DNA of 61,256 nt from NCBI GenBank assembly GCA_026418195.1, contig JAOABU010000054.1, forward strand, positions 1-61,256. The letters run 5' to 3'. Shown piece by piece: positions 5,773 through 18,469 of this stretch (the first letter of the stretch is position 1; each line of letters begins with the position of its first letter). Both the position numbers and the translations under genes were made by a program. The notes beneath the pieces are model-generated. The model did not search any database and was not told the DNA's origin. It saw only the letters and a program-made list of their open reading frames with translations. The stretch comes from Spirochaetota bacterium (GTDB taxonomy: Bacteria; Spirochaetota; Spirochaetia; DTKZ01).

Positions 5773-6927
5773 ATGGAGAAAGGATTCTACCAGCATAGGA
5801 TAGGCATACTATTATTATTCTTTCTAGGTTCTTCTATACTTTCAGCCGTAGAAGTATCGATTCCTAATCTGGAATTGATGTCCTGGGGAAGACTAGAGGA
5901 AGGAACGTTTGGATTATACTCTCGAGGATATTTGGAGGTTGCTCTCTTAGGTGCTGAGCGAGGATTTGGTGGAAAGGCAGAGTTCCTATTCGAAGATTCC
6001 AATTTGGAAGAATCCGCTACGCTACCTTCCAGTTACGATCAATCCGCTTTAGAACAGGCTTTTCGTAAAACATTACGTGTTAAATCACTCAGTGTAGAGA
6101 TGAAACAGATCTTTCAACTCCCCGTTTCTATGGTCTATTTTACAGGAAGTACCGATGTGATTGGTTCTGGAAAGGTATTCACTTCGGTGTTTGGATTAGC
6201 TTCCCTTGCTTCCCCAGTTCATGGATACCTCTACTTCCCTAAAGGAATCCAGTACGAAGGGATACACACCATAGCGGGAACTGGCTTGAAATTATATACG
6301 GATAAGGCTTTCGAAACTCTCTTTCTATCCGCTTATACTTACCAGGATCAATACCTGGGTAAAGGGAAATATTCCTCCGACCTGTGGATAGCCTTCAACT
6401 TCGAAGGTTTGCAATTAGAGACTTTTATCGGTGCCAGTTATCCCATCTCTACATACGGCCTCTACCGGGCTGGTTTACTCTTCCATTATAAGACTCCCGA
6501 AGGAGGAGCATTCTTTACTCAGATCGGCGTTCCTCGTTGGGACCCAAAGGAAGATACTCGATTCACCGTAGATCTCTTCTATTTTCTTTTCGAACCTCGC
6601 GTACAGATAGGTCTCTTTGGGGTTTCCATCACCTTCTTTTGGCATCCATCCTATTACCTGCAAACGGCAACTGGGGAATCAGGCATTACAGACTTATATA
6701 TTCGGTTTTCCTACGGGAAACAACCTCAGACAAGCTGGGTAGGAGGGATCGAGAACGGAGTTACCTTACAAACCAATGCAGGGGAACAAATCACCTATCG
6801 ATTGACTCCCTACGTTTCCATCCTAACTTCGGGGGTTCAATGGGAATTCCGCATAAACTTCAATCTGTATCCCTACCACTGGAATAGTCTCATTCAAACG
6901 TTTGTAGGAGCAAAAACTTCCTTTTGA
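5773..6927 (+). CDS. Predicted outer-membrane beta-barrel protein
   Basis: Exported protein of 384 residues that I do not recognise as a named family. It has a signal peptide (basic start, GILLLFFLGSSILSA, cleavage near 24) followed by alternating aromatic and polar strands throughout, such as LYIRFSYG and WEFRINFNLYPY. Together these suggest a transmembrane beta-barrel. The final residue is Phe, common in barrel proteins. GGAGG lies seven bases before the ATG, inside a 12-base palindrome. It forms a two-gene unit with the next barrel gene and is divergent from cheA. A porin or structural role is inference. Confidence 0.7.
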   Translation: MEKGFYQHRIGILLLFFLGSSILSAVEVSIPNLELMSWGRLEEGTFGLYSRGYLEVALLGAERGFGGKAEFLFEDSNLEESATLPSSYDQSALEQAFRKTLRVKSLSVEMKQIFQLPVSMVYFTGSTDVIGSGKVFTSVFGLASLASPVHGYLYFPKGIQYEGIHTIAGTGLKLYTDKAFETLFLSAYTYQDQYLGKGKYSSDLWIAFNFEGLQLETFIGASYPISTYGLYRAGLLFHYKTPEGGAFFTQIGVPRWDPKEDTRFTVDLFYFLFEPRVQIGLFGVSITFFWHPSYYLQTATGESGITDLYIRFSYGKQPQTSWVGGIENGVTLQTNAGEQITYRLTPYVSILTSGVQWEFRINFNLYPYHWNSLIQTFVGAKTSF

Positions 6928-6957
6928 GAGCAGAGGAAATTACGTAGGAGTTTGAAC

Positions 6958-7872
6958 ATGAAAATAAGGGGTTGTGTCTACGTTTGTTTCGTCATTGTTT
7001 CTCTGATCCTTTCCAGCGTGCTATGTACGTATGGATGGGAAACCGGTGGAGAACTCATCGTCAGTTCCCTCAATTTTCATCCTGACCGCAAACCTGAAGA
7101 TACAACTTTTTCAGCCTACTACCTCCCTGTCCGTTATAGCGTGTTCGTATCTCATCGGTTGGATGAAAATATGTCCTTCGATCTTTCCTATGCGAAGGAC
7201 AATATTCTGCGAAATATCCTCTTTGGTACCTTTTCCTATGAAATGGACTATTTTTCTTTACAGGTAGGTCCCTTCTTTGGAATGGGGAACTCCACAGAGG
7301 TGCCGGTAAAGGCAGGAATTTTAGCTTCCATCGAGGTTAGAGCCCCCGGACAGGTGTTCGTTCTACTTCGTTCTGGAAGAAGCCTTAATCTATTAAACAT
7401 CTTCAAGGGGAATGCGCTGAGCGGGTCCGTTTCATCCGAGGGGGATTTCATTCAAGAAAACAATGAGGTACGATTCGGGGTATACCTCCGAAACACGATT
7501 CTCTCTTTTTTTATACACTCGAAGATTTTTACCGAGTATACCTCATTGTACGGTACGGTGAGTGATTCCCAAACAGACTATGGGACTCGTACAGAGGTAT
7601 TTCAGAAAAACATCCCTTTCCGAATCATCCTATCCTTCTTTTTTAGAAACATGACTCGATACTACGAAGACATTCCCACACCAGTGGAACATACTATCGG
7701 TTCTATTGTTTTTGGAAGTAGGTTGGAATACTCTTACAATTCCCGTTGGATAGCTTATTTGGATCTGGAAAGCAGTATCTACTCGTTCGGTTTAAACGAT
7801 CTGATTGGTGAATATGCGGGAACGACGTACCTATTTACATTAAAGACAGGATTTCGATATCGATTCCAATAA
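6958..7872 (+). CDS. Predicted outer-membrane beta-barrel protein
   Basis: Protein of 304 residues with a signal peptide (MKIRGC, then a hydrophobic run to about residue 25) and a mature part rich in aromatic, alternating strands (YFSLQVGPFFGMG, YLFTLKTGFRYRF). It ends in Phe-Gln, close to the terminal aromatic of barrel proteins. No family is recognised. TAGGAG seven bases upstream favours ATG 6958 over the TTG at 6952. It follows the first barrel gene by 30 bases and is probably co-transcribed. The signal peptide contains a Cys but no convincing lipobox. Confidence 0.65.
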   Translation: MKIRGCVYVCFVIVSLILSSVLCTYGWETGGELIVSSLNFHPDRKPEDTTFSAYYLPVRYSVFVSHRLDENMSFDLSYAKDNILRNILFGTFSYEMDYFSLQVGPFFGMGNSTEVPVKAGILASIEVRAPGQVFVLLRSGRSLNLLNIFKGNALSGSVSSEGDFIQENNEVRFGVYLRNTILSFFIHSKIFTEYTSLYGTVSDSQTDYGTRTEVFQKNIPFRIILSFFFRNMTRYYEDIPTPVEHTIGSIVFGSRLEYSYNSRWIAYLDLESSIYSFGLNDLIGEYAGTTYLFTLKTGFRYRFQ

Positions 7873-7898
7873 TTACAGAAAGATAACATACATTAAAT

Positions 7899-7926
7899 AG
7901 TAAGAGCCCCTTTCGGGGCTCTTACT
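7899..7926. terminator. Hairpin between convergent genes
   Basis: AGTAAGAGCCCC and GGGGCTCTTACT form a perfect 12-base-pair stem around the loop TTTC, between the barrel gene (stop at 7872) and flaA (stop at 7965). The T tract is weak on both strands. Placement and strength still suggest a shared bidirectional terminator. Confidence 0.8.
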
Positions 7927-7964
7927 GATTGTCTCTATGGATAGGATGGGTATTTAAGAATCCA

Positions 7965-8990
7965 TTACTTTCCTGCAGTAGGTGCCTTAGCTGGAGCAGA
8001 TTCTCCCGCATGCATCTTCTTGAGCTCTAGATACCGCAATACTTGTAGGTGCCCCAGCCTTCGGAGTTCCGCTGTGCGCCGAGCCTCTTCCCGTTTCTGG
8101 AGAATACCCCATGTAGCCTCGTCGTCGATATCCCGTTCCAGCGTGAGAACTGCTTTATCGTAGACTATGGAAATGTCCTTGATATAACCGATGAAATCCC
8201 CACCTTCATGAGCAGCATCTCGATAGATGCGTATACCTACGAGTTTCCGCATGGGTGCAGACTTGGGATACAGGGGGAACACTCGGAGATCTCTGTTTCG
8301 AACTTCTGCTACATAGTTGGGATTTTCCCAGGTGAGCTTCTTCCATCCATCGAATTGGAGGTTCCCCATGAAAATTTCCTGTTCTTCGTTGTTTTCATCC
8401 ATCAAGATGATACTGATGGAATGGGGGAAGTTCAAACCGTGAACATTCATGGAAACAGATTTCAGCACACCAACATTCTTCACTACCCCTAAATTGTCGA
8501 ACTTTCTTCCTTTACCAACTTCCTCTTGTGGTACCGATAGGGACCCGTCTGCATTTACGACAGTTTTATCCATATACGCAGGGATCTCGAAAGGTGGTCG
8601 AACAAGGGCCCAGGAGTTGAAGGGATCGGTAGGGAAATGTACCCGTATCCCGAGAACTGTAGCCCCTGCGAAATTCGCTGCTCCTTCCCGAACCTTTGCC
8701 GGCTTTGCCATGGATAAGGACTGGTTCAATACAAACCGGGAAGAAGATGCTAGAAGGACTTCCCAGTTCTTGATGGCCAAGGAAGTTTTCATCAGGGCTT
8801 TTTCTTCGGCAGTATAACTAGACCCAGCTACTACGCTGAAATCTACCATCGTTGCCTGGTTTTCCTTTGGATTATCTTTAGGATAATCGGCCGCCAATTG
8901 GGCGAAATCGATAAGCACAGATTCGTCCGCACTGAGCCCCATGCCTACTAGCATGAACGCTACGAAGAGAATGGTAAAATACCGTTTCAT
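7965..8990 (-). CDS. flaA: Flagellar filament outer-layer (sheath) protein FlaA
   Basis: FlaA coats the FlaB core of spirochete periplasmic flagella and affects filament stiffness. The product has 341 residues with a signal peptide (MKRYFTILFVAFMLVGMGLSA) and the FlaA-type body: LGIRVHFP, SWALVRPPFEIPAY, MNVHGLNFPHSI and RKLVGIRIYRDA. The tail is charged and ends in Ala/Pro/Lys residues. I chose ATG 8990 because AAAGGAG precedes it by six bases and the signal peptide begins there. The order amidase, GerMN-like protein, flaA is one I recall from T. pallidum. A near-consensus promoter lies just upstream, so flaA can be made at a higher level than the rest of the operon. Confidence 0.93.
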   Translation of the reverse strand: MKRYFTILFVAFMLVGMGLSADESVLIDFAQLAADYPKDNPKENQATMVDFSVVAGSSYTAEEKALMKTSLAIKNWEVLLASSSRFVLNQSLSMAKPAKVREGAANFAGATVLGIRVHFPTDPFNSWALVRPPFEIPAYMDKTVVNADGSLSVPQEEVGKGRKFDNLGVVKNVGVLKSVSMNVHGLNFPHSISIILMDENNEEQEIFMGNLQFDGWKKLTWENPNYVAEVRNRDLRVFPLYPKSAPMRKLVGIRIYRDAAHEGGDFIGYIKDISIVYDKAVLTLERDIDDEATWGILQKREEARRTAELRRLGHLQVLRYLELKKMHAGESAPAKAPTAGK

Positions 8991-9024
8991 TCCATGCTCC
9001 TTTACAATGACCGTGTCATATAAA

Positions 9025-9052
9025 ATTATACGGAAGCAAGCCTCTTTGTCAA
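9025..9052 (-). promoter_or_regulatory. Near-perfect sigma70 promoter of flaA
   Basis: TTGACA (9047-9052) and TATAAT (9025-9030) are both full consensus, 16 bases apart on the minus strand. The predicted start is about 28 bases upstream of the flaA ATG and leaves an AAAGGAG leader. The -35 overlaps the stop region of the preceding gene. Sigma70 control of flaA, unlike sigma28 control of flagellin cores, is known in treponemes. Confidence 0.85.
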
Positions 9053-9597
9053 CGAATTTTCTTTTGTTTTTCAGGATTTTGAGCCAAGAATGGAGGATTC
9101 CCAGGCAATTGACCATTCACGGTTAGAAAGATCTGTTTAAACCGAGGATAGTTAAAGCTTAAGGTTTTTCGAAGGATTCTGAACCGTTCGTCCCAGCCAA
9201 CCCGTATGTCTTCACTGGCGAACAGCACATCGGGAGATAGATCAACGTAGAGGTTCCCACTACGAATAAGAAGGGATTGTACCTTCGATCCTAATGGAAA
9301 TACCCGTTGAAATCTTGGATCCATGGGTCCCCATAGGAGCTCTTCCACTAATCCTAGCACGCGATCTTCCAAAGAAGATTTCCATGGGATGGAACGAATT
9401 TCCCCTCCCAGCGTCCCTTTTTGATATTCTAGAAAGAAAACCAGATGTTTCTCCCTAGAAAAGCGGGCTATTGAAAAAGAGAAAAAAGCAATTAGAAAGG
9501 AAAGAATGAAAAGAGAACCACTTAGGAGGATCATCTTGGGTGTTCTGTGATAGAAGGCCTCTATAGCTGATGTCAGATCCTTCCAATCAATACTCAT
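9049..9597 (-). CDS. GerMN-like membrane-anchored protein
   Basis: Protein of 182 residues with an N-terminal membrane anchor (about 20-45) and a C-terminal periplasmic domain. Residues about 85-165 show the GerMN pattern: VLGLVEELLWGPMDP, then LYVDLSPDVL and FKQIFLTVNGQLPG. GerMN domains occur in sporulation and envelope lipoproteins, often beside amidases; the ligand is not settled. The start ATG overlaps the amidase stop (ATGA), so translation is coupled. A role with the amidase in the cell wall around the flagella is inference. Confidence 0.7.
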   Translation of the reverse strand: MSIDWKDLTSAIEAFYHRTPKMILLSGSLFILSFLIAFFSFSIARFSREKHLVFFLEYQKGTLGGEIRSIPWKSSLEDRVLGLVEELLWGPMDPRFQRVFPLGSKVQSLLIRSGNLYVDLSPDVLFASEDIRVGWDERFRILRKTLSFNYPRFKQIFLTVNGQLPGNPPFLAQNPEKQKKIR

Positions 9598-10631
9598 GGT
9601 GCCTTTACCCGCCTTGTAGGTTGATCGATAGTTCCGATAAACCGGACAATTCCATTGTAGATTGCCTGGGCAATCTTCTGCAAGTATTCAGGCTGATTCA
9701 GAAGCTTCGCTTCTTCTTCGTGGGTAATGAAACCGATTTCTACAAGAACCGAAGGCATTTTTGCCTTACGGACTACAAACCAAATCTCCTCTTTAAGACC
9801 ACGATTCTCCGATAGGGAACCTACCGACTCTTCCATCGAATCGAGAATATGTTTGGCCAACAGGATGCTTTCAATCGTGTACTCTTCCTCCAACATCATA
9901 TTTAAAATGGGGACAATTTCTCTATTCTCCGCTCCCACCCGATCGCTATCAATTAGCTTCCTCCTGTATTGGGGAGGGAGGTACCAGACTTCAAATCCTC
10001 TAGCCTTGGGATTCAACGAGGCATTCACATGGATGGATACATAGATGACTGCATCCTCCGGATCCACAGAAATGGAATTCGCCATTTCGGTGCGTTCCTC
10101 GAGGGTCAGGTATCGATCATCGCTTCGGGAAAGAATTACCTTCTTTTCAGGATACCTTCGTTTTAAAAGGTCTGCGAGAAGGAGGGATGTTTTCAGATTG
10201 ATATCCTTTTCTTTCAATTCCAAGGTCTCCTTTCCGATCTGATGTCTTCCTACGGTTCCCGGATCCTTTCCTCCATGACCTGGATCAATGAAGATCGCTG
10301 CTACCCGCGGTCCCGATTTATTGGATCCTACCAAGGCTCCATAGATCGCTTCTTCGGTCTTCCTTGTCCACTGAAGGGTTCCCTCTTTCTCGATGATGGG
10401 GTCGATTTTCATTTTCTCCCGATAGTTGACCAGCACCCAAGGCTCATCCACCTTAAAGGAAACAACGGAGTATCCGATCCGGAATACGCCAATCTTCAAA
10501 AATGGATTCCACTGTAACTCCAGTTCAACCTTCGAAAGGAACTCGCCAATGTCCCGATACTCTCCTGCGAAAACGGAAACAGGAATTACTATCAGAATGA
10601 TGCCACTTAGAATCCAACGGCGCACGCCCAT
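9594..10631 (-). CDS. N-acetylmuramoyl-L-alanine amidase (Amidase_3)
   Basis: Exported zinc amidase of 345 residues that cuts the bond between muramic acid and the stem peptide of murein. A signal peptide (MGVRRW, hydrophobic to FAG at about 23) is followed by an uncharacterised 90-residue region and the Amidase_3 domain (about 108-335). Expected zinc ligands are His119 (DPGHGG), Glu141 (LKEKD) and His201 (SIHVNAS), with catalytic Glu298 in LVEIGF. All are present, so it should be active. The start overlaps the end of the ATP-grasp gene by 25 bases. The T. pallidum flaA locus has a similar gene. Confidence 0.9.
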   Translation of the reverse strand: MGVRRWILSGIILIVIPVSVFAGEYRDIGEFLSKVELELQWNPFLKIGVFRIGYSVVSFKVDEPWVLVNYREKMKIDPIIEKEGTLQWTRKTEEAIYGALVGSNKSGPRVAAIFIDPGHGGKDPGTVGRHQIGKETLELKEKDINLKTSLLLADLLKRRYPEKKVILSRSDDRYLTLEERTEMANSISVDPEDAVIYVSIHVNASLNPKARGFEVWYLPPQYRRKLIDSDRVGAENREIVPILNMMLEEEYTIESILLAKHILDSMEESVGSLSENRGLKEEIWFVVRKAKMPSVLVEIGFITHEEEAKLLNQPEYLQKIAQAIYNGIVRFIGTIDQPTRRVKAP

Positions 10632-12280
10632 TCTTTCACCTTCTCCTGTAATGCTTCCAGGTTAGAATATCCAGAGCAGTGGTCCAACATCCATACTACT
10701 CCCTGAAGTCCCCCCCGAAAGGCAACGTACCAGAAAAGAGCACCCGGTATCCATCTCCCAACCCAGGAAGCCCTTTTCCATTGTTCGGCCATCGTTCTCA
10801 ATCGCTCCATTAGTTTGGGTAAGGTCAGGTAATTCCATCCTATCCAATTGTCCAGAGCATGAACGCACTGAAAGGAGAGAATCGGTATCGGGAGGTTCGG
10901 AACACGAGAGAAGGATGTACGTTGACGATCTATCCTAGTTGATTCCATTGTCCTTTCTGCGACTACATCCCAACGAAGGGAACGTAATCGTTCTAGGAGG
11001 GAAGAGTCCAACGGATAACACGAACGTCCATCCATCCAATTAGGAGTAAACAGAAACTGTTCAGTATCCTCATTCATAGGGTCCAGTCGGATCAGGATGG
11101 AAGCTACCGCATCCTCTGCTGCTCGAACAGCCCTCGTCCGTTCCTCCGCTACCGCGATTACATTCCCACATTTCTCTACATTGTTAGTGGGAAACACTAC
11201 AGAATCTCCTGTTCGTACTCGCATGAATACTTCTTTCACTTCGGAAATCTTTCGCGCCTCCTCTACCCCTTCAATACGTAGGACCCTTCCGGGAATGGAG
11301 ATTAAAGCTCTCTCGGCGGCTGTACAGGATTGTTTGGGGGTCCGATCCCCTGGTTCTTCGCCAAGGGCGATCCGCAGAGCGCCTTCTGTGAGATTCACTC
11401 CGCTGGAGTACGGATAGGTCCACCCTGACATGTATCCTCCCGAGAGTCGAGCGGCAATTTCCCCTATCACCCCTCCTTTCCCAGGAGAGTAAAAAATGTC
11501 TCCTTTGGCAGCCCCTGGATCAATCCTCAAAGCCCTGATCCCCGCTTTAAAGGTTTCGATCACTTCCTCTTGTACCTCGATGGGGGCAGAGCTAGGGATA
11601 GTATGTCCCACCTCTACGAAATAGGGAGCAAACCGAATATGTCGATCCGCGATGCCACAAATCTGGATCTTTCCCTTATAAACCAAGGCATCGAGGCTGA
11701 ACTCAGGTCCCTCGATGAACTCCTCTACAATCACTTTTCCGGAACGAGAATACCGCAGGGATTCCTGAAGTTGAGTTTTCAATGCCTCCCAGCTCTCCAC
11801 TCTCACTACGCCCCGAGCTCCCATATTGTCCACTGGTTTCACTACCAGAGGGAATCTAAGCCCCTCCATCGGTAACTCGTTAAAATCCCTCCCTTCTATC
11901 TCCAAGAAGGAAGGAGACGGAACTCCACAGCTATAAAAGCGTTTCCGCATTCTGGCTTTGTTGGAGGCATCTATCGCAATCTGATAGGGAATTCCGGGCA
12001 GCTTTAGAGCTTCGGCCACATATGCCACCGAAGCAGAAAAATCAGTACCCGCTGTGAATACTCCATCTAAACCATACAAGTTCTGCCATTTTTGGGCCAC
12101 CTTCAATAGACCGTCGAGATCCTTCAGGTCTATGGGTTCGAACACATCGGCCTCTGATGCCCCAACAGCTTCTGGATCTCCATCCACCACCAGGGTCCTA
12201 CAGTTCAACTGTTTTGCTGTTCTAAGGGCGGGAATCTGAAGAAGTCCTGCCCCTAGAATCATGATCGATCTTTTGCGCAT
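10607..12280 (-). CDS. ATP-grasp ligase of the CarB/PurK-like type
   Basis: Cytoplasmic protein of 557 residues. Residues 1-110 form the N-terminal fold MILGAGLLQIPAL...TLVVDGDPEA. The ATP-grasp core (about 115-400) shows FPLVVKPVDNMGARGV, VIVEEFIEGPEFSLD and GEIAARLSGGYMSGW. Family members activate a carboxylate with ATP and join it to an amine or thiol. The last 160 residues are an extra domain I cannot place (it contains GGLQGVVWMLDH). The substrate is unknown. It sits between sugar-modifying genes and the amidase and overlaps both neighbours, which suggests it attaches an amino acid or acid group to the product of this operon; that is inference. Confidence 0.85.
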   Translation of the reverse strand: MRKRSIMILGAGLLQIPALRTAKQLNCRTLVVDGDPEAVGASEADVFEPIDLKDLDGLLKVAQKWQNLYGLDGVFTAGTDFSASVAYVAEALKLPGIPYQIAIDASNKARMRKRFYSCGVPSPSFLEIEGRDFNELPMEGLRFPLVVKPVDNMGARGVVRVESWEALKTQLQESLRYSRSGKVIVEEFIEGPEFSLDALVYKGKIQICGIADRHIRFAPYFVEVGHTIPSSAPIEVQEEVIETFKAGIRALRIDPGAAKGDIFYSPGKGGVIGEIAARLSGGYMSGWTYPYSSGVNLTEGALRIALGEEPGDRTPKQSCTAAERALISIPGRVLRIEGVEEARKISEVKEVFMRVRTGDSVVFPTNNVEKCGNVIAVAEERTRAVRAAEDAVASILIRLDPMNEDTEQFLFTPNWMDGRSCYPLDSSLLERLRSLRWDVVAERTMESTRIDRQRTSFSRVPNLPIPILSFQCVHALDNWIGWNYLTLPKLMERLRTMAEQWKRASWVGRWIPGALFWYVAFRGGLQGVVWMLDHCSGYSNLEALQEKVKEWACAVGF

Positions 12281-14030
12281 ATACCTCGAATGTGTCTCCT
12301 AAATGGAAAAGTGTTTCCATGGCACGACAACCTTTTGAACCGATGAGTACACGTACCAGAGAGGGAAACCGTTCTGGATGATGGGAAGGGGTTCGTACAG
12401 CGAAAACCCTGAAACCGAACTTGGGTAACACGTTTTTTGCTTGGGCTACATTCCAAATCGTCACATGATCGATGGGACTCTGTTCCCTAAAAGACCTCGG
12501 ATTTCGAAGGGAAGAAATTCCCTTACCGTTAGGAGTAGAAAAAATCAGCCACCCTCCCTCGCTAAGCATGTCTCGTACCCTTTCCAAAACCAAGCCTAAT
12601 TTGGGAAGATGTTCTATTACATACCAGAGGGAAATTACATCGAAGGCCCGGACTCCAAAGGATACCAAAGGATCGAAGGTTTCAATGTCGGCTACCATGG
12701 CAGGAATTCCTAACTTCTCTCGAACATACCGAATGGCATCTTCCGACAGATCGATGCCATAGGGAATCATTCCCTCTTCCCGAGCAGCATCAAGAAACGG
12801 TCCCAACGCACACCCTACATCGAGTACGGTTTTCCCTTTCAGAGAACCCAACCCTCGGGCAGATAGACCTTTTGTTAGAAACGCAAGCCGTTTTTTCCCT
12901 TGTTCTTTGATCTTAGAAAAATCTTCCACATAGGTCTTCCCATACTGTCTACGATACTCTTCGAAAAAGTATTCGGAGGTATACTCCTTCTTCTGTCCGC
13001 CAAAGTATACCCTATACTCGGTTCTACACTCCCCACACCGAAAAAAAGAACGATCGTAAACCCTGTAGAATACTCGATTTTCCAGTCCTTTACAGAGGGG
13101 GCATTGAGGAAGGATATCGGCCTGAATTGTGGAGAGAAACTCTCCGAAAGAAGCCTTATTCCCTGAAACCATCCTCCACCCTTTCACCCAAATGGGGAGA
13201 ACCAGTTCGGGATGTTCCAAAGCAAAGCGAAGCCGACTACGCGATACCCTACGAACCCCTAAGCTATAAAAACCAGCCCGTTTTGAGAGGTCTTCGTGGT
13301 ATTGCGTAGGATTCACTAAAAGGGGTGTAGATCCCTCTAAGATCGCTTCATAGGGGGTGAGCCCAAAGGAGGTAACTACCCATCGGTAACGGGAAAAATG
13401 TTTTCTCGAATCCCAACCTCCGGAAAGAATATTACCACACGGTTTTTGAAAAGGATGTGATCTAGCAGGACCTAGAAGGACATCAATTTCTTCTGGTCGT
13501 ACTCCGCTGGACACCAAACCATCGAAGGATCGTTCACTCAAGCGGTATGGATCCTCTCCCCCAAAAGCAAGGAGAAAGGGTCGATAAGAATCAGAATACC
13601 TTCTCTCTAGCGAAAAATCGATCATGGGGGCAAAGAGAGGTTCCCTCTTGTTGGGTTCCCACGACTTTCTGATACGTGGAAAGGTATCTAAAAGGTACGT
13701 GCAAACCAACCGAGCCTCTCCTCCTTCATCCAATCCAAGGGTTGGCGCTCCAAAATGTAACCGTCCATACTCCTCGAGGGATGTACTCTTGCGGTCGAAA
13801 ATCACCCAATCCCAAGGGCGGGAATCAGGTTTACGCTCTAGGAACCGGTCCCACGGAAAGGCGGGGAAAAAGGAACGTACCTCCTCTTCCTTCCAGTGAA
13901 GAGGATTCCCGGGCTCAAGTAAGATGGATGCATTTCCCTTCCAGGAAAGTGCCAAACGCATCATCCGTACCAGATGGCCCAATCCGCCTTTCCGTCGAAT
14001 AGAAGGGATCAGGAGAATCGACCCGTTCAT
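12222..14030 (-). CDS. PseG-like sugar-nucleotide hydrolase fused to a zinc-finger methyltransferase
   Basis: 602-residue fusion. The first part (about 1-310) resembles PseG/GT28-fold enzymes that release UDP from acetamido sugars: GGLGHLVRMMRLA near the N-terminus, LLAFGGEDPY, and SFGLTPYEAILEGSTPLLV. The second part begins with a CxxC pair set (CPLC and CGEC, near 318-340) and continues as a class I SAM methyltransferase (about 390-560) with VLDVGCALGPFLDAAREEG and GIDLS. PseG acts in pseudaminic-acid synthesis, which glycosylates flagellins in other bacteria. The start overlaps the cytidylyltransferase stop (ATGA). Substrate and methyl acceptor are unknown. A glycosyltransferase role for the first half is the main alternative. 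Confidence 0.75.
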   Translation of the reverse strand: MNGSILLIPSIRRKGGLGHLVRMMRLALSWKGNASILLEPGNPLHWKEEEVRSFFPAFPWDRFLERKPDSRPWDWVIFDRKSTSLEEYGRLHFGAPTLGLDEGGEARLVCTYLLDTFPRIRKSWEPNKREPLFAPMIDFSLERRYSDSYRPFLLAFGGEDPYRLSERSFDGLVSSGVRPEEIDVLLGPARSHPFQKPCGNILSGGWDSRKHFSRYRWVVTSFGLTPYEAILEGSTPLLVNPTQYHEDLSKRAGFYSLGVRRVSRSRLRFALEHPELVLPIWVKGWRMVSGNKASFGEFLSTIQADILPQCPLCKGLENRVFYRVYDRSFFRCGECRTEYRVYFGGQKKEYTSEYFFEEYRRQYGKTYVEDFSKIKEQGKKRLAFLTKGLSARGLGSLKGKTVLDVGCALGPFLDAAREEGMIPYGIDLSEDAIRYVREKLGIPAMVADIETFDPLVSFGVRAFDVISLWYVIEHLPKLGLVLERVRDMLSEGGWLIFSTPNGKGISSLRNPRSFREQSPIDHVTIWNVAQAKNVLPKFGFRVFAVRTPSHHPERFPSLVRVLIGSKGCRAMETLFHLGDTFEVYAQKIDHDSRGRTSSDSRP

Positions 14031-14698
14031 GATCCTTCTATACCTCGAAGAAGAGGTATAAGGTCCTCCAGACTAGGGAGTTCTACAGACTCCAGTTGCT
14101 GATAAATCCATTCAACCTTTCGAAAATCGGTCTCGGTATCTACCGTAACCCGGAATCTACCTCGGTATTCTGGTTCGACCAGAGGACGATGCAGGTAGAA
14201 CTTATCAGGATTTCGGTATACATAAGGGGTTACATGCTCATGATCGTAGGGATCCTCCGTCTCTTTCTCTGCTTTAAGAAGAATGGAGGCTTCCACTACT
14301 TCTACCCCCAACCCAAGAGGCATTCCCTGGAAGGCGCTATAATCAGAGGAAAGGAGTAAATGTTCAGATAGGATTCGTTGGGCCAACTCCCAGGAGACCA
14401 ATGGATTGTCTCCGGTAGCCCGAATCACGGTTTTAGGTTTAAACGTTTCGATGGCTCTGCAGAACCTACCTAGCACATCTTCCTTGGAACCTTCATATAC
14501 AGTAAACCCTACTTTCTCTGCGAAAGGAGTAAAGCTCTGTTTCCCGTTCCGATCCGTCACCAGGACATAGAGGTCCGCAGAGATTTTTCGAAGCCGCTCC
14601 ATCACTATCTGAACCATAGGTTTACCCCCTAAGGTCAGCAGCGCCTTTCCCGGTAGGCGGGTGGAATCCACACGAGCCTGCAGAAAAACGGCGATCAT
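14027..14698 (-). CDS. SpsF/NeuA-type sugar cytidylyltransferase
   Basis: Nucleotidyltransferase of 223 residues that activates an acidic sugar with CTP. It opens with the family signature IAVFLQARVDSTRLPGKALL (about 2-21) and has RATGDNPLVSWELA, which carries the metal-binding Asp, and HEHVTPYVYRNPDKF. SpsF-type proteins occur with PseG-like hydrolases in pseudaminic and legionaminic acid clusters. ATG 14698 overlaps the stop of the upstream glycosyltransferase (ATGA). A GTG at 14716 is a less likely start. The exact sugar cannot be told from sequence. Confidence 0.85.
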   Translation of the reverse strand: MIAVFLQARVDSTRLPGKALLTLGGKPMVQIVMERLRKISADLYVLVTDRNGKQSFTPFAEKVGFTVYEGSKEDVLGRFCRAIETFKPKTVIRATGDNPLVSWELAQRILSEHLLLSSDYSAFQGMPLGLGVEVVEASILLKAEKETEDPYDHEHVTPYVYRNPDKFYLHRPLVEPEYRGRFRVTVDTETDFRKVEWIYQQLESVELPSLEDLIPLLRGIEGS

Positions 14699-15657
14699 TC
14701 CTCCGGATCCTCCCACAACTCAGTGATGGTGCGACTGTCCATCTTGAACCGGTACGCATTTACCTTTACCCATTTGCGGACTGCGTTGAACTCTTTCATA
14801 GAAACAAAGACTCCCCCCTTAGATCGGAAATAGAAAGGGAGGAATTTTCTAAAGGGTAGTTCTCCCCTGTCTCCCGTATATACGATACTTAAATTTTTTA
14901 AAAAGAATAACCGGTAACTGTCATCGGGTGTAGTATCTTCCATCGGGTTTCCATCGAAGTGAATTCCCTGCACATGCTTCCGGCAAACGATCCTCTCCCC
15001 CCAGAGGAAGGAACGAAACCCAAAATCCAACTTTTGCCAGTACGGATTGGTGAGATTATAATCATACCCACCCATACGGATAAAGGTTTCTTTGTGGTAG
15101 ATCCCACAGTAATCGAAGGGAAAAAGATCGAGGGCTTCCTCTTTCTGGGGAACTACAGATAGTACTTTTAACCGTGCTTTGTGAAAAGCGGGGATGTGAA
15201 GGACAGGAAGGGGAGAATGCCGGGAGGTAAATATCCAGGGGGTTACACAGAGTTGTATGGAACCTTTCTCCACTGATTCGATTCCAGCTTGAAACGCGTG
15301 TGGATCGATCTGGTAGTCGGCCCAGAGAATGATACAGAGAGAGAACGATGCTTCATGAATCCCAATATTAATCTGCTGTCCCACATTCACCGGTTCATGC
15401 AAGAGCACAAATCGTACCTTGGGGAACTGTCCAACCAGCGATTCTAACTGATAACTCTCCCTTGAAGGCTCGATAGAGAGGATCTCCCCCACATCCATCC
15501 CATGGAACGTCTCCAGTAACGAAACCCTGTCAACCACACCTCCCCGATACAGGAGAATTAGAGAAACTCCCCGCTCCCGTTTCTTGCTTTTCCCTACCCC
15601 TCCAACCACAGTATAGGATGAGAGGAGAGGATTAAAAGTTGTAGGTATAGTATTCAT
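14695..15657 (-). CDS. Family 2-like (GT-A) glycosyltransferase
   Basis: Cytoplasmic protein of 320 residues with GT-A fold features: VSLILLYRGG near the start, EPVNVGQQINIGIHEAS, an acidic LWADYQID in place of a clean DxD, and MGGYDYNLTNPYWQKLDFGFR, the acceptor-side pattern typical of GT2 enzymes. It probably moves a sugar from a nucleotide donor to an acceptor made by its neighbours. The ATG at 15657 lies 26 bases inside the spiro-SPASM gene, so the two are translationally coupled. A longer frame reaches 15738 but would overlap further without gain. Confidence 0.7.
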   Translation of the reverse strand: MNTIPTTFNPLLSSYTVVGGVGKSKKRERGVSLILLYRGGVVDRVSLLETFHGMDVGEILSIEPSRESYQLESLVGQFPKVRFVLLHEPVNVGQQINIGIHEASFSLCIILWADYQIDPHAFQAGIESVEKGSIQLCVTPWIFTSRHSPLPVLHIPAFHKARLKVLSVVPQKEEALDLFPFDYCGIYHKETFIRMGGYDYNLTNPYWQKLDFGFRSFLWGERIVCRKHVQGIHFDGNPMEDTTPDDSYRLFFLKNLSIVYTGDRGELPFRKFLPFYFRSKGGVFVSMKEFNAVRKWVKVNAYRFKMDSRTITELWEDPEE

Positions 15658-17131
15658 CACATTTCTCGCACAGAGCTGGGTACGCACCCCTAGTATGGTC
15701 CAGATACACCTTCCCCATCCGATCCCAGATCTCTTCAATGGATTGTTGGAACAGGTTCCCTAGGAGGTGTTCTCTTTTCAAATCTTCCCTACAGAGGGGT
15801 ACTGATCCATCCAGAAGGACTGTTAGGTCCCGTTTCAAGTGCCAACAGGGAAATCGGTGGAGAGGAGAAAGATCGGTAACCTTTCTCTGGGGGAGAAGTC
15901 CAGAGAACCAATCGTACTTCTGGATAATGATGTGAGGGGTTCTTGCCTTCCAACTTCGATAGAACTCTTCCAATCCCTCCTCTGTCTCTTCCATCCTAAC
16001 AGCTTGTACATAACTCGTTTGGGGGAAGAGGGAAAAGAGAATCTCCATATTCCTACGAGATTCTTGAAACCCTTCTCCTCGAAGGGATCTGTACCATTCT
16101 TGCTGATCCGTTACAAGATCCACGATCCAAGTGATCCGATCCCCCAGAATATCCTTGGCCTTGTTCAGGTCTTCCTCTTTCCACCCAATTCCCGAAGTCT
16201 CTACTACAAACCGCGTTTCGGGATAGGAAGCTACCAATTCACAGAGAGCCGGGAAATTAGGATAGTAGGAAGGTTCTCCCCAAAGGGATACCCCTACAAC
16301 TAGATCCCCGCAGAATCGAACCCCCTCGTCTAAAACCCTGGAAAAGGATTCGATAGGCATGAACCCCTCTGCCTGTAGGATATCCATTCCCATAAGGGGG
16401 TACGGACAAAAGGTACAGCGATGGGGGCACTTCTCGGTGATCTGGACTGAGAGGTACGCAGGAACTGTCCTAAGTATTTCCGGTTTGGTTTGAAGAATCG
16501 TAAGGATGTCTTGAGCGCTGGTAGGATTCTCCTGATCCAAGGCCAAGCAAAGGAGCCGGTTCCGCTTCGTGTCAGTGGTAAGGGAAATACGCAGGTACCG
16601 AAGATCCACAGGGGAAAGTTCGGTTTCTAAATCAAAACTGTTGATATCCTTGCTGATGAGGGTGAAAAGAGTATCCCTTTGTATCGGCCCCTGTGGATTG
16701 TCTACCAATCTTTCCAAAGCTTCTAGAATCCGAGTTTCTAGGATTTCCGGAGTCAAACCGTATGGGTATCCATCCGCGAAGGTATAGTCGGCGAAGTACC
16801 GGTCATGGTTTTGAAGCATCTTACGGGTAAGGGATAGATCGAGAAAGGGGCAATCCCCGTACACGTACACTAACGTATCGTATCCTGCGGATACGTCCCG
16901 TAATACGTGTAGGAAATCCCTCAACGTCCAGTTCGGCCGAAGAATCCACCGGAATCCGTTTAAGGGTTCTGGGAGAGGTTCTGTTCCTAGGAGGATAAGG
17001 GATTCTTTTGAAACGATTTGTAGAGCGTATTCCAGAACTCGCTCAAGGGCAGTGCGATTCTTGGAGCGATAGGGAGAAGCTTCTGGTGTGCTAGAGGATG
17101 GGATAGAATTGATGACTAGGAGAAGTTTCAT
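15632..17131 (-). CDS. Spiro-SPASM protein: nucleotidyltransferase-like domain plus radical SAM/SPASM enzyme
   Basis: 499 residues in two parts. Residues 1-200 look like a sugar-nucleotidyltransferase fold (MKLLLVINSIPSSSTPEASP; VYVYGDCPFLD carries an acidic metal site). Residues about 220-499 are a radical SAM enzyme with the iron-sulfur cluster motif CPHRCTFC near 235 and a C-terminal SPASM region (PCWHL, VPLCRED, CEKCDEYY) that would hold auxiliary clusters. As I recall, this pairing is a spirochete-restricted family without known reaction. SPASM enzymes modify peptides, proteins or sugars. Start chosen at ATG 17131, with GAGGA six bases upstream. First gene of the operon ending in flaA. 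Confidence 0.85.
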   Translation of the reverse strand: MKLLLVINSIPSSSTPEASPYRSKNRTALERVLEYALQIVSKESLILLGTEPLPEPLNGFRWILRPNWTLRDFLHVLRDVSAGYDTLVYVYGDCPFLDLSLTRKMLQNHDRYFADYTFADGYPYGLTPEILETRILEALERLVDNPQGPIQRDTLFTLISKDINSFDLETELSPVDLRYLRISLTTDTKRNRLLCLALDQENPTSAQDILTILQTKPEILRTVPAYLSVQITEKCPHRCTFCPYPLMGMDILQAEGFMPIESFSRVLDEGVRFCGDLVVGVSLWGEPSYYPNFPALCELVASYPETRFVVETSGIGWKEEDLNKAKDILGDRITWIVDLVTDQQEWYRSLRGEGFQESRRNMEILFSLFPQTSYVQAVRMEETEEGLEEFYRSWKARTPHIIIQKYDWFSGLLPQRKVTDLSPLHRFPCWHLKRDLTVLLDGSVPLCREDLKREHLLGNLFQQSIEEIWDRMGKVYLDHTRGAYPALCEKCDEYYTYNF

Positions 17132-17203
17132 ATTCTTCCTCATTATCGACAGAAACAAAAAGGCCCTGAAGGCATAGAAGGATCATCGAGAAGGGGGAAA
17201 CTA

Positions 17204-18469
17204 TTGTCAAGGGAAGTACAACAGGGTATGTTTCAATTAATGACGACTGTAGATAACCCATCCGAACATGTCTATCGGGTTTCGGAAATCACGTCTCACA
17301 TCAAACTACTCCTCGAGTCTTCCTACCCTTACATCCGTGTGGAAGGAGAAATCTCTAACTTTCGTCCTTCCAGCACAGGGCATTACTATTTCACCCTTAA
17401 AGACGCGGATGCAGTCCTCTCGGCAGTGCTATTCCGGAACCGAATCCCTCAACTGACGTTCAAGCCTCAGGACGGGATGAGGGTCATTGCGGGTGGACAG
17501 ATTTCTGTATACCCTCAAAGAGGAAGTTACCAGCTAATTTGCGAAACCCTCGAACGGTCCGGAGAAGGGGATATCCTAGCCATGTTGGAAGAGAGGAAGC
17601 GAAAGCTGGCAGCGGAAGGTTTGTTCGATGCGAGCCGAAAAAAACCTCTTCCCCTCTTTCCGAGACGAATTGCCATCGTTACCTCCCCTACAGGAGCGGC
17701 TCTTCGAGACATTCTCCAAGTACTGAGACGACGTAACGCAGGGATCGATATTGTGATTCTTCCCACACCTGTGCAAGGGGAAGGAGCTGATCTGTCTATT
17801 GCAGCCCAGATCCACCGGGCAAACGTATTCCGCCTTGGAGAAGTGATTATCGTCGGTCGAGGGGGAGGAAGTCTGGAAGACTTGCTCCCCTTCTCTAGCG
17901 AAGCTGTAGTGAGAGCAATCGCAGCCTCGGAAATTCCTGTCATCTCCGCTGTAGGGCATGAAATCGATACTTCTTTAGCGGATTTTGCTGCTGACGTTCG
18001 CGCACCTACCCCCTCGGCTGCTGCAGAGTTAGTGTCTAAGGGACGAGAAGAATTGCTCCATAGGATCATCTCCTTGAAAGAGTCCCTCATCCAGGAGATG
18101 GATCACCGGATCGAGAAAATTAGGGTACTTCTACGACAGTTCAGTCTAGAGAGCCTTGAACGACAAATAAAGAACATCCTTCAGCCTTACTACTTCCGGT
18201 TGGATGATGCGAAGGAACGATTCATTCTGGAGTTTCGAAACAAACTAGATACCTATAAACATCGATTCGAACTTGCCTATGCCCAGATTCAAACTAGCTC
18301 GCCCTACGAAGTCCTGAAGAAAGGATACTCCATTGTGCGAGCTAAGACTTCTGGCCAGATCCTACGATCTGCCGAATCATGCACGTTGGGAGAGCCCCTC
18401 TCCATCCAATTCTATCAAGGAGCGGTAGATGCCACAGTCGAAAAAATCATCCCCACCCAAAACTTTTGA
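17204..18469 (+). CDS. xseA: Exodeoxyribonuclease VII large subunit
   Basis: Catalytic subunit of ExoVII (421 residues), which degrades single-stranded DNA from both ends during repair and recombination. It has the N-terminal OB fold (IRVEGEISNFRPSSTGHYYFTLKD), the catalytic core (IAIVTSPTGAALRDI, VIVGRGGGSLEDL, ISAVGHEIDTSLADFAADVRAPTPSAAAEL) and a coiled-coil tail. The start is taken as TTG 17204, seven bases after GGGGG; ATG 17228 is the alternative and lacks a better site. It overlaps xseB by 41 bases and is divergent from the spiro-SPASM operon. Confidence 0.95.
   Translation: MSREVQQGMFQLMTTVDNPSEHVYRVSEITSHIKLLLESSYPYIRVEGEISNFRPSSTGHYYFTLKDADAVLSAVLFRNRIPQLTFKPQDGMRVIAGGQISVYPQRGSYQLICETLERSGEGDILAMLEERKRKLAAEGLFDASRKKPLPLFPRRIAIVTSPTGAALRDILQVLRRRNAGIDIVILPTPVQGEGADLSIAAQIHRANVFRLGEVIIVGRGGGSLEDLLPFSSEAVVRAIAASEIPVISAVGHEIDTSLADFAADVRAPTPSAAAELVSKGREELLHRIISLKESLIQEMDHRIEKIRVLLRQFSLESLERQIKNILQPYYFRLDDAKERFILEFRNKLDTYKHRFELAYAQIQTSSPYEVLKKGYSIVRAKTSGQILRSAESCTLGEPLSIQFYQGAVDATVEKIIPTQNF

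Follow-up and report, generated by a model that had tools for sequence, protein, structure and literature searches.

In Treponema denticola the core flagellin FlaB carries a 450.2 Da glycan that is needed for assembly and motility, according to the account in PMC9481697, which cites Kurniyati et al. 2017, and in Leptospira FlaB1 glycans are located at the interface between core and sheath (PMC13144727). T. denticola requires flagellin glycosylation for motility, and the Leptospira glycans mediate the binding of sheath and core. The acyl group of the T. denticola glycan is reportedly 2-methoxy-4,5,6-trihydroxyhexanoyl on N7. In the literature searched we found no genes assigned to its acyl or methyl steps. 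An earlier note on the locus studied here had proposed an undescribed glycan or peptidyl modification. As to the glycan this was overstated, as an acylated nonulosonic acid (NulO) on T. denticola FlaB has already been described; what looks undescribed is the set of genes making it.

Layout and conservation of the operon

The window, which is the whole stretch of 61,256 nucleotides analysed (contig JAOABU010000054.1, Spirochaetota bacterium), carries eight minus-strand genes at the positions given in the earlier note. The first encodes spiro-SPASM (15632..17131; 499 aa), composed of a degenerate cytidylyltransferase-like N-domain, a radical SAM domain and a SPASM-like C-terminal end. It is followed by genes for a GT-A-fold glycosyltransferase-like protein (14695..15657; 320 aa from the conserved ATG, longest ORF start 15738), an SpsF-type cytidylyltransferase (14027..14698; 223 aa), a fusion of a PseG-like hydrolase domain (residues ~1-305), a Zn-ribbon and a class I SAM methyltransferase (~306-602) at 12222..14030, and an ATP-grasp ligase with an L-amino-acid-ligase C-terminal domain (10607..12280; 557 aa). 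The last three genes encode an N-acetylmuramoyl-L-alanine amidase (Amidase_3; 9594..10631; PF01520, E 2.5e-51), a membrane-anchored GerMN (Germane) domain protein (9049..9597; PF10646, E 2.8e-6) and the flagellar filament outer-layer (sheath) protein FlaA (7965..8990; PF04620, E 3e-77), for which the signal peptide ATG at 8990 was taken as start (longest ORF 9116). With conserved start codons the first seven genes overlap by 26, 4, 4, 59, 25 and 4 bases, in agreement with the range of 4 to 59 noted before.

A sigma-70-like promoter candidate for the operon lies on the minus strand at 17182..17210 (TTGACA-17-GATGAT, 10/12), a consensus match only, at a chance rate of 10.7 sites in the region. 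The candidate directly before flaA (9025..9052, minus strand) is likewise a consensus match only and agrees in 12/12 positions (TTGACA-16-TATAAT). Since flaA begins 58 bases beyond the GerMN gene and behind this match, it may be transcribed separately as well. A 12-13 bp stem-loop after flaA (7898..7927, no strand assigned) is a bidirectional terminator candidate.

The operon is genuine and well conserved. Ten spirochete families, that of the window among them, keep the eight genes in one order, and the complete set in this order was present at 67 of the 90 loci with enough flanking DNA, which excludes a chance arrangement and clearly contradicts a lack of conservation outside this genome. Of 296 genomes, 281 have flagellin, 259 NeuB, 250 spiro-SPASM and 238 ATP-grasp. 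Across this set the operon marker genes track the joint presence of flagellin and NeuB, a signal that amounts to about three independent losses. NeuB, spiro-SPASM and ATP-grasp are absent from the Borrelia-like genomes (30/30), in which flagella are present; ATP-grasp and any real spiro-SPASM are absent from the flagellin-less genomes (15/15), two of which have kept a strong NeuB without the operon markers. In the T. pallidum-like genome the whole set is retained together with Maf, despite reduction to 1.14 Mb.

The host genome encodes NeuB (L073:9498-10697; NeuB_NnaB, E 3.5e-72, below the equivalog cut-off) and four flagellin glycosyltransferases of the Maf type (PF01973). A second NeuB match in this genome (C68) turned out on inspection to be a DAHP-synthase-like protein. 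Maf is present in 3-4 copies in 13/13 flagellated NeuB+ genomes tested and in none in the Borrelia-like G076 and the flagellin-less G281. The pairing of a CapD-like dehydratase with a DegT aminotransferase was seen in five relatives examined. Relatives that conserve it include the T. pallidum-like genome, and in a genome of the window's genus (G296, L232) the two genes adjoin. The pair is missing from the window's own assembly, where CapD was searched for and not found; because two genomes of the same genus have CapD, an assembly gap is the likely explanation.

A proposed route to a tailored nonulosonic acid

The markers follow flagellin and NeuB, and the host possesses NeuB and four Maf genes, which argues for a role in the late steps of NulO glycosylation of flagellin. 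We consider it likely that the operon serves to build and tailor a NulO glycan carried by FlaB, the core of the periplasmic flagella, with the sheath protein FlaA expressed alongside; the tie between a nonulosonic-acid type pathway and these flagella drawn previously is thereby upheld. In the scheme that we infer for its enzymatic activities, a UDP-amino-deoxy sugar would be produced by the CapD-like dehydratase and the DegT aminotransferase, both encoded elsewhere. UDP would be removed by the PseG-like domain of the operon, NeuB, also encoded elsewhere, would condense the sugar with PEP, and the SpsF-type enzyme would yield the CMP-NulO. The ATP-grasp ligase, a candidate N-acyl (amide) ligase, would activate a carboxylic acid, probably of the alpha-hydroxy or aldonic type, as acyl phosphate and link it as an amide to the sugar amino group, while the fused methyltransferase would methylate the acyl group or the sugar. 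This tailoring is the least certain step, with roughly even chances of being correct, and both reactions would fit the acylated, methoxylated 450-Da glycan of T. denticola FlaB. Attachment of the product to Ser/Thr residues of FlaB would follow in the cytoplasm, catalysed by Maf transferases. For the GT-A protein we suppose either an addition to the glycan or help with transfer, and spiro-SPASM would act chiefly via its conserved cysteine-rich C terminus, in a binding or scaffolding role or as a non-radical enzyme.

The SpsF-type protein (PF02348, E 5e-32) is a candidate CMP-NulO synthetase: the nucleotide-binding motif R..S.R...K is present in 138/138 members of its family and in 0/138 spiro-SPASM N-domains. 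The PseG-like domain has kept the GxGHxxR motif in 100/101 proteins. The window protein had no NCBIfam match in this domain, and in relatives the operon-encoded domain is the best TIGR03590 match of the genome, at E 1e-5 to 1.3e-13 and below the cut-off; no canonical PseG was detected elsewhere in any genome tested. PDB sequence searches with this domain and with the GT protein gave weak glycosyltransferase matches or nothing. In a structure search with the predicted model of the fusion (pLDDT 89.3) the best 50 matches were methyltransferases only, which has no bearing on PseG identity either way. The methyltransferase part (PF13489) resembles in its predicted structure the sugar C-methyltransferases KijD1/MtmC/TcaB9, to a degree at least equal to its resemblance to an O-methyltransferase in the structure search, a point against the proposed scheme. 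For the GT protein, described earlier as a GT2-like transferase, no Pfam or NCBIfam family matched; its AlphaFold model (pLDDT 83.7) has a GT-A fold, and the closest Foldseek relatives were GT27 polypeptide GalNAc-transferases (E 1.7e-11, TM about 0.55).

The ATP-grasp ligase matched PF13535 and PF18603 (LAL_C2), both over their cut-offs, and its PDB relatives include 4dim, 3vot BL00235 and BacD. No other pathway for flagellin sugars is known to use an acyl-attaching enzyme of this kind. As the nearest relatives of known function are L-amino acid ligases and BacD, the NulO pathway might be right and the ligase might attach an amino acid, not a hydroxy acid, to the sugar. We regard this as rather unlikely, given that the ligase of six families from other classes is fused to a domain of FMN-dependent 2-hydroxy-acid dehydrogenases (FMN_dh), a family acting on 2-hydroxy acids, and that the acyl group known in T. 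denticola is a hydroxy acid. In the T. pallidum-like genome the corresponding FMN_dh gene stands alone beside the sugar cluster. Fusion and standalone neighbour together suggest that the acyl donor is an alpha-hydroxy acid.

Split operons and the motif loss in spiro-SPASM

The same sugar genes might serve a surface polysaccharide or a lipid-linked NulO glycan, the neighbourhood of flaA being incidental. NulO genes frequently contribute to O-antigens, separate NulO clusters exist in Leptospira (PMC3438082), and CapD and DegT occur in polysaccharide loci too. However, the absence of the set from all 15 flagellin-less genomes, even the two with a strong NeuB, and its retention with Maf in the 1.14-Mb genome make such a role quite improbable.

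Loci in which the operon is split allowed the sugar genes to be separated from the wall-related ones. The T. denticola genome (G165) was identified by exact matches of 10/10 published flaA-operon primers; a MAG titled T. denticola (L142) has the full operon, differs from G165 and was treated as mislabelled. Primer mapping ruled out sugar genes inside the T. denticola flaA operon (TDE1716-1712) and placed the amidase, GerMN and flaA genes last in it; its first two ORFs we take from their sequences to encode a small glyoxalase-like protein and phosphoglycerate kinase. The sugar genes map away from flaA, to positions 1.94 and 2.25 Mb. In T. denticola, the T. pallidum-like genome and G276, amidase and GerMN stay with flaA and not with the sugar genes. 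This speaks against the cell-wall role raised earlier. In one such reading, cell-wall or peptide modification, muropeptides close to the basal body of the flagellum would be the substrates of the ATP-grasp ligase and the amidase; it is suggested by the overlap of the ATP-grasp, amidase and GerMN genes within one operon and by the amino-acid ligases among the ATP-grasp relatives. In both T. denticola and the T. pallidum-like genome, however, a long distance separates the ATP-grasp gene from the amidase gene. The ATP-grasp gene is also absent from walled Borrelia-like and flagellin-less spirochetes and is fused to FMN_dh elsewhere, and we hold a cell-wall function to be very improbable.

The window protein is a full member of the spiro-SPASM family TIGR04321 (530 bits, cut-off 250), also matches PF04055 and PF13186, and has an intact CxxxCxxC motif (CPHRCTFC). 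A literature search for spiro-SPASM by name yielded no papers. Among 138 homologues, 35 have lost CxxxCxxC, in about ten independent events that left the remainder of the protein conserved, while the four cysteines of the SPASM-like C-terminal end are invariant in 138/138. As the T. denticola protein, from a species with a known glycan, is among those that lost the motif, radical chemistry cannot be the common function of spiro-SPASM. The family name implies radical-SAM chemistry, and about a quarter of the sampled members are without the SAM-cluster cysteines, a caution against inferring such chemistry from annotation. The radical-SAM peptidyl modification entertained before is not supported, and a RiPP- or enzyme-maturase-like peptide maturation with the sugar genes as passengers is hardly credible despite the intact CxxxCxxC and SPASM domains of the window protein, as the motif is dispensable and the overlaps of 4-59 bases leave no intergenic room for a precursor-peptide gene between the operon genes.

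Within the preferred pathway to glycosylated FlaB we tentatively propose a phylum-specific form of NulO tailoring, in which the ATP-grasp ligase and the FMN-dependent 2-hydroxy-acid dehydrogenase might attach a hydroxy-acid side chain to the sugar on flagellin, and spiro-SPASM, possibly a double pseudoenzyme (a dead cytidylyltransferase and, in many lineages, a dead radical SAM enzyme), might be an essential scaffold or regulator via its cysteine-rich C-terminus. The operon offers a short list of candidate genes for an unusual acylated sugar throughout the phylum, the T. pallidum-like genome included.

Comparison with known systems

T. denticola, of the same phylum and with the same filament, likewise carries spiro-SPASM, the GT-A protein, the cytidylyltransferase/PseG/methyltransferase fusion and the ATP-grasp ligase; it differs in that its operon is split, the cytidylyltransferase is fused to the PseG-methyltransferase protein and spiro-SPASM is without the radical-SAM motif. 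The legionaminic-acid pathway of Bacillus subtilis (SpsC, D, E, F, G; PMC7439481) shares with the proposed route the SpsF-type cytidylyltransferase, a PseG/SpsG-type hydrolase, NeuB/SpsE, DegT/SpsC and UDP-linked precursors, but lacks an ATP-grasp ligase, a fused methyltransferase and any protein resembling radical SAM enzymes, and its product goes to the spore crust. The Pse-Leg systems of Campylobacter, Helicobacter and Aeromonas resemble the proposed pathway in placing NulO on flagellin through Maf transferases, with filament function depending on it, whereas their tailoring proceeds by CoA-dependent N-acylation (PseH) and acetamidino or other modifications instead of an ATP-grasp/FMN_dh system.

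Layout, conservation and splitting of the operon

The eight minus-strand genes that the earlier note read at 7965-17131 are present in the window (contig C152 of a 3.13-Mb spirochete assembly). With the starts conserved in relatives, the first seven overlap by 26, 4, 4, 59, 25 and 4 bases, in line with the 4 to 59 bases claimed, and flaA starts 58 bases past the GerMN gene. A perfect TTGACA-16-TATAAT match at 9052-9025, on the flaA strand just upstream of flaA and recognised by consensus match alone, suggests a second promoter for flaA only. Two plus-strand genes at 5773-7872 converge on flaA; their products (384 and 306 aa) are apparently exported and possibly beta-barrel. The second operon protein matched no sequence family, and its AlphaFold model is a GT-A fold with GT27 GalNAc-transferases as nearest structures. 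The PseG-like reading is weak in the window protein but was recovered in relatives: apart from MurG-sized matches, the best TIGR03590 matches in G284, G194, G276, G203 and G253 were the operon's PseG-methyltransferase fusion gene. No PseG exceeded the TIGR03590 cut-off in the 12 genomes searched.

The gene-order survey proposed earlier used profiles grown from the window proteins. Run on regions from 40 genomes chosen for spread over families and on 80 named contigs, a sample skewed to query-like sequences, they placed all eight genes in order at 67 of the 90 loci that had 9.8 kb or more of downstream sequence, usually accompanied by a divergent xseA. The complete order occurs in ten families of class Spirochaetia (f1, f2, f3, f4, f7, f8, f10, f11, f15, f17). 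Treponema-like genomes fuse the cytidylyltransferase to PseG-methyltransferase, other classes retain only cytidylyltransferase and PseG beside spiro-SPASM, and family f25, Brachyspira-like by composition and gene content among other traits, has neither adjoining it.

Exact matches to published flaA-operon primers (PMC9481697) led us to infer that G165 is T. denticola. Here amidase-GerMN-flaA lies at 1.77 Mb, preceded by phosphoglycerate kinase and a small ORF as located by these primers, spiro-SPASM-GT-cytidylyltransferase/PseG/methyltransferase at 1.94 Mb and the ATP-grasp ligase at 2.25 Mb. G276 carries ligase-amidase-GerMN-flaA in one block, apart from the operon's first block. These splits demonstrate two separable modules, sugar and sheath/wall. 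L142, a MAG titled Treponema denticola, has an unsplit operon, contrary to the primer-identified genome; its title is probably wrong.

Co-occurrence with flagellin and the nonulosonic acid pathway

In one set of 296 genomes, with membership outside the printed lists obtained by subtraction, flagellin was not found in 15 (families f9 and f12). Spiro-SPASM was unmatched in 46, namely 30 of f5 (Borrelia-like, judged as for f25), 13 of the 15 flagellin-less genomes and three with a completeness of 76-84%; the remaining two without flagellin gave weak matches only (E 3e-5, 5e-7). NeuB was not found in 37 (30 f5, one f12, six incomplete), nor the ATP-grasp ligase at E<=1e-70 in 58, comprising all 45 of f5, f9 and f12 and 13 others, four from f32, in which the ligase family is divergent, and the rest mostly incomplete. 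Maf transferases show the same presence/absence pattern (15 genomes). This co-occurrence represents about three independent losses, so its statistics call for caution; its direction, however, is unambiguous.

The window assembly holds four Maf genes and the NeuB that the earlier note proposed to look for elsewhere, an orphan at L073:9498-10697 between serS-like and feoB-like genes, apart from all other nonulosonic acid genes. Relatives share a cluster of CapD-like dehydratase, DegT aminotransferase and three xanthine-dehydrogenase-family (molybdenum-hydroxylase) genes, with a NusG-like gene in several (L185:9264-15592, L190:8486-14640, L191:8032-14767, L192:8895-15877, L193:4873-10851, L232:849-6972). 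The relatives with this cluster include G056, T. pallidum-like by gene content among other traits, and, in the window's genus, G296. The trio follows CapD and DegT in all relatives examined, the 1.14-Mb T. pallidum-like genome among them, and possibly oxidises an aldehyde to an acid within the same glycan pathway. Neither a strong CapD nor the CapD-DegT pair was found in the whole window assembly; since two genomes of its genus carry CapD, this is probably an assembly gap and less likely a real loss. The Zn-ribbon methyltransferase of the operon has a paralogue in the window's own genome, encoded as a separate gene (L181:3078-3929) with a DegT aminotransferase on the same contig.

Spiro-SPASM and the probable acyl donor

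Radical-SAM chemistry as the shared role of spiro-SPASM did not hold: CxxxCxxC is kept in 103 of 138 distinct homologues and lost in 35, whereas all 138 share four cysteines in the C-terminal part. With the motif columns left out of the tree, the pattern takes 10 changes, or 11 losses if regain is disallowed. The motif is gone in T. denticola (L006), in the T. pallidum-like genome (L052) and in the Brachyspira-like genomes (L044, L069), among others. At its N-terminus the protein has a domain homologous to the operon cytidylyltransferase, whose nucleotide-binding motif is present in 138/138 cytidylyltransferases but absent from 138/138 spiro-SPASM N-domains. Judged from these motifs, neither nominal catalytic activity can therefore be the common function. 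T. denticola, whose spiro-SPASM is motif-less, reportedly makes the acylated glycan characterised by Kurniyati in 2017.

The operon ligase resembles amino-acid ligases and carries a C-terminal FMN_dh domain in f21, f25, f34, f45, f46 and f52 (E 1e-16 to 1e-69). In the T. pallidum-like genome, an FMN_dh of this subfamily (150 bits, E 5e-44) stands as a protein of its own, 293 aa long and encoded two genes past the cytidylyltransferase/PseG/methyltransferase gene, with the ligase 460 kb away. Enzymes of the FMN_dh family use 2-hydroxy acids as substrates, which makes an acid of this kind the likely acyl donor. The T. denticola acyl group is reportedly 2-methoxy-4,5,6-trihydroxyhexanoyl, a methylated alpha-hydroxy acid. 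By mass arithmetic with this acyl structure, 274.1 + 176.1 = 450.2 Da fits an amide link to a mono-acetylated diamino-nonulosonic acid. The published T. denticola glycan mass is 450.2 Da (PMC9481697).

Linkage to flaA

In Leptospira, FlaB1 glycans occupy the core-sheath gap and were proposed to mediate sheath binding (PMC13144727). Joint expression of the sugar-making enzymes and of FlaA, which forms the sheath around the glycosylated core, could plausibly explain why the genes are linked. Altogether, the gene observation of the earlier note is confirmed and its interpretation supported in part. Spiro-SPASM is, from its motifs, an unusual radical-SAM-like protein that appears repeatedly de-catalysed, and the system is most likely a form of the known nonulosonic acid glycosylation of flagellin, with a phylum-specific tailoring set.
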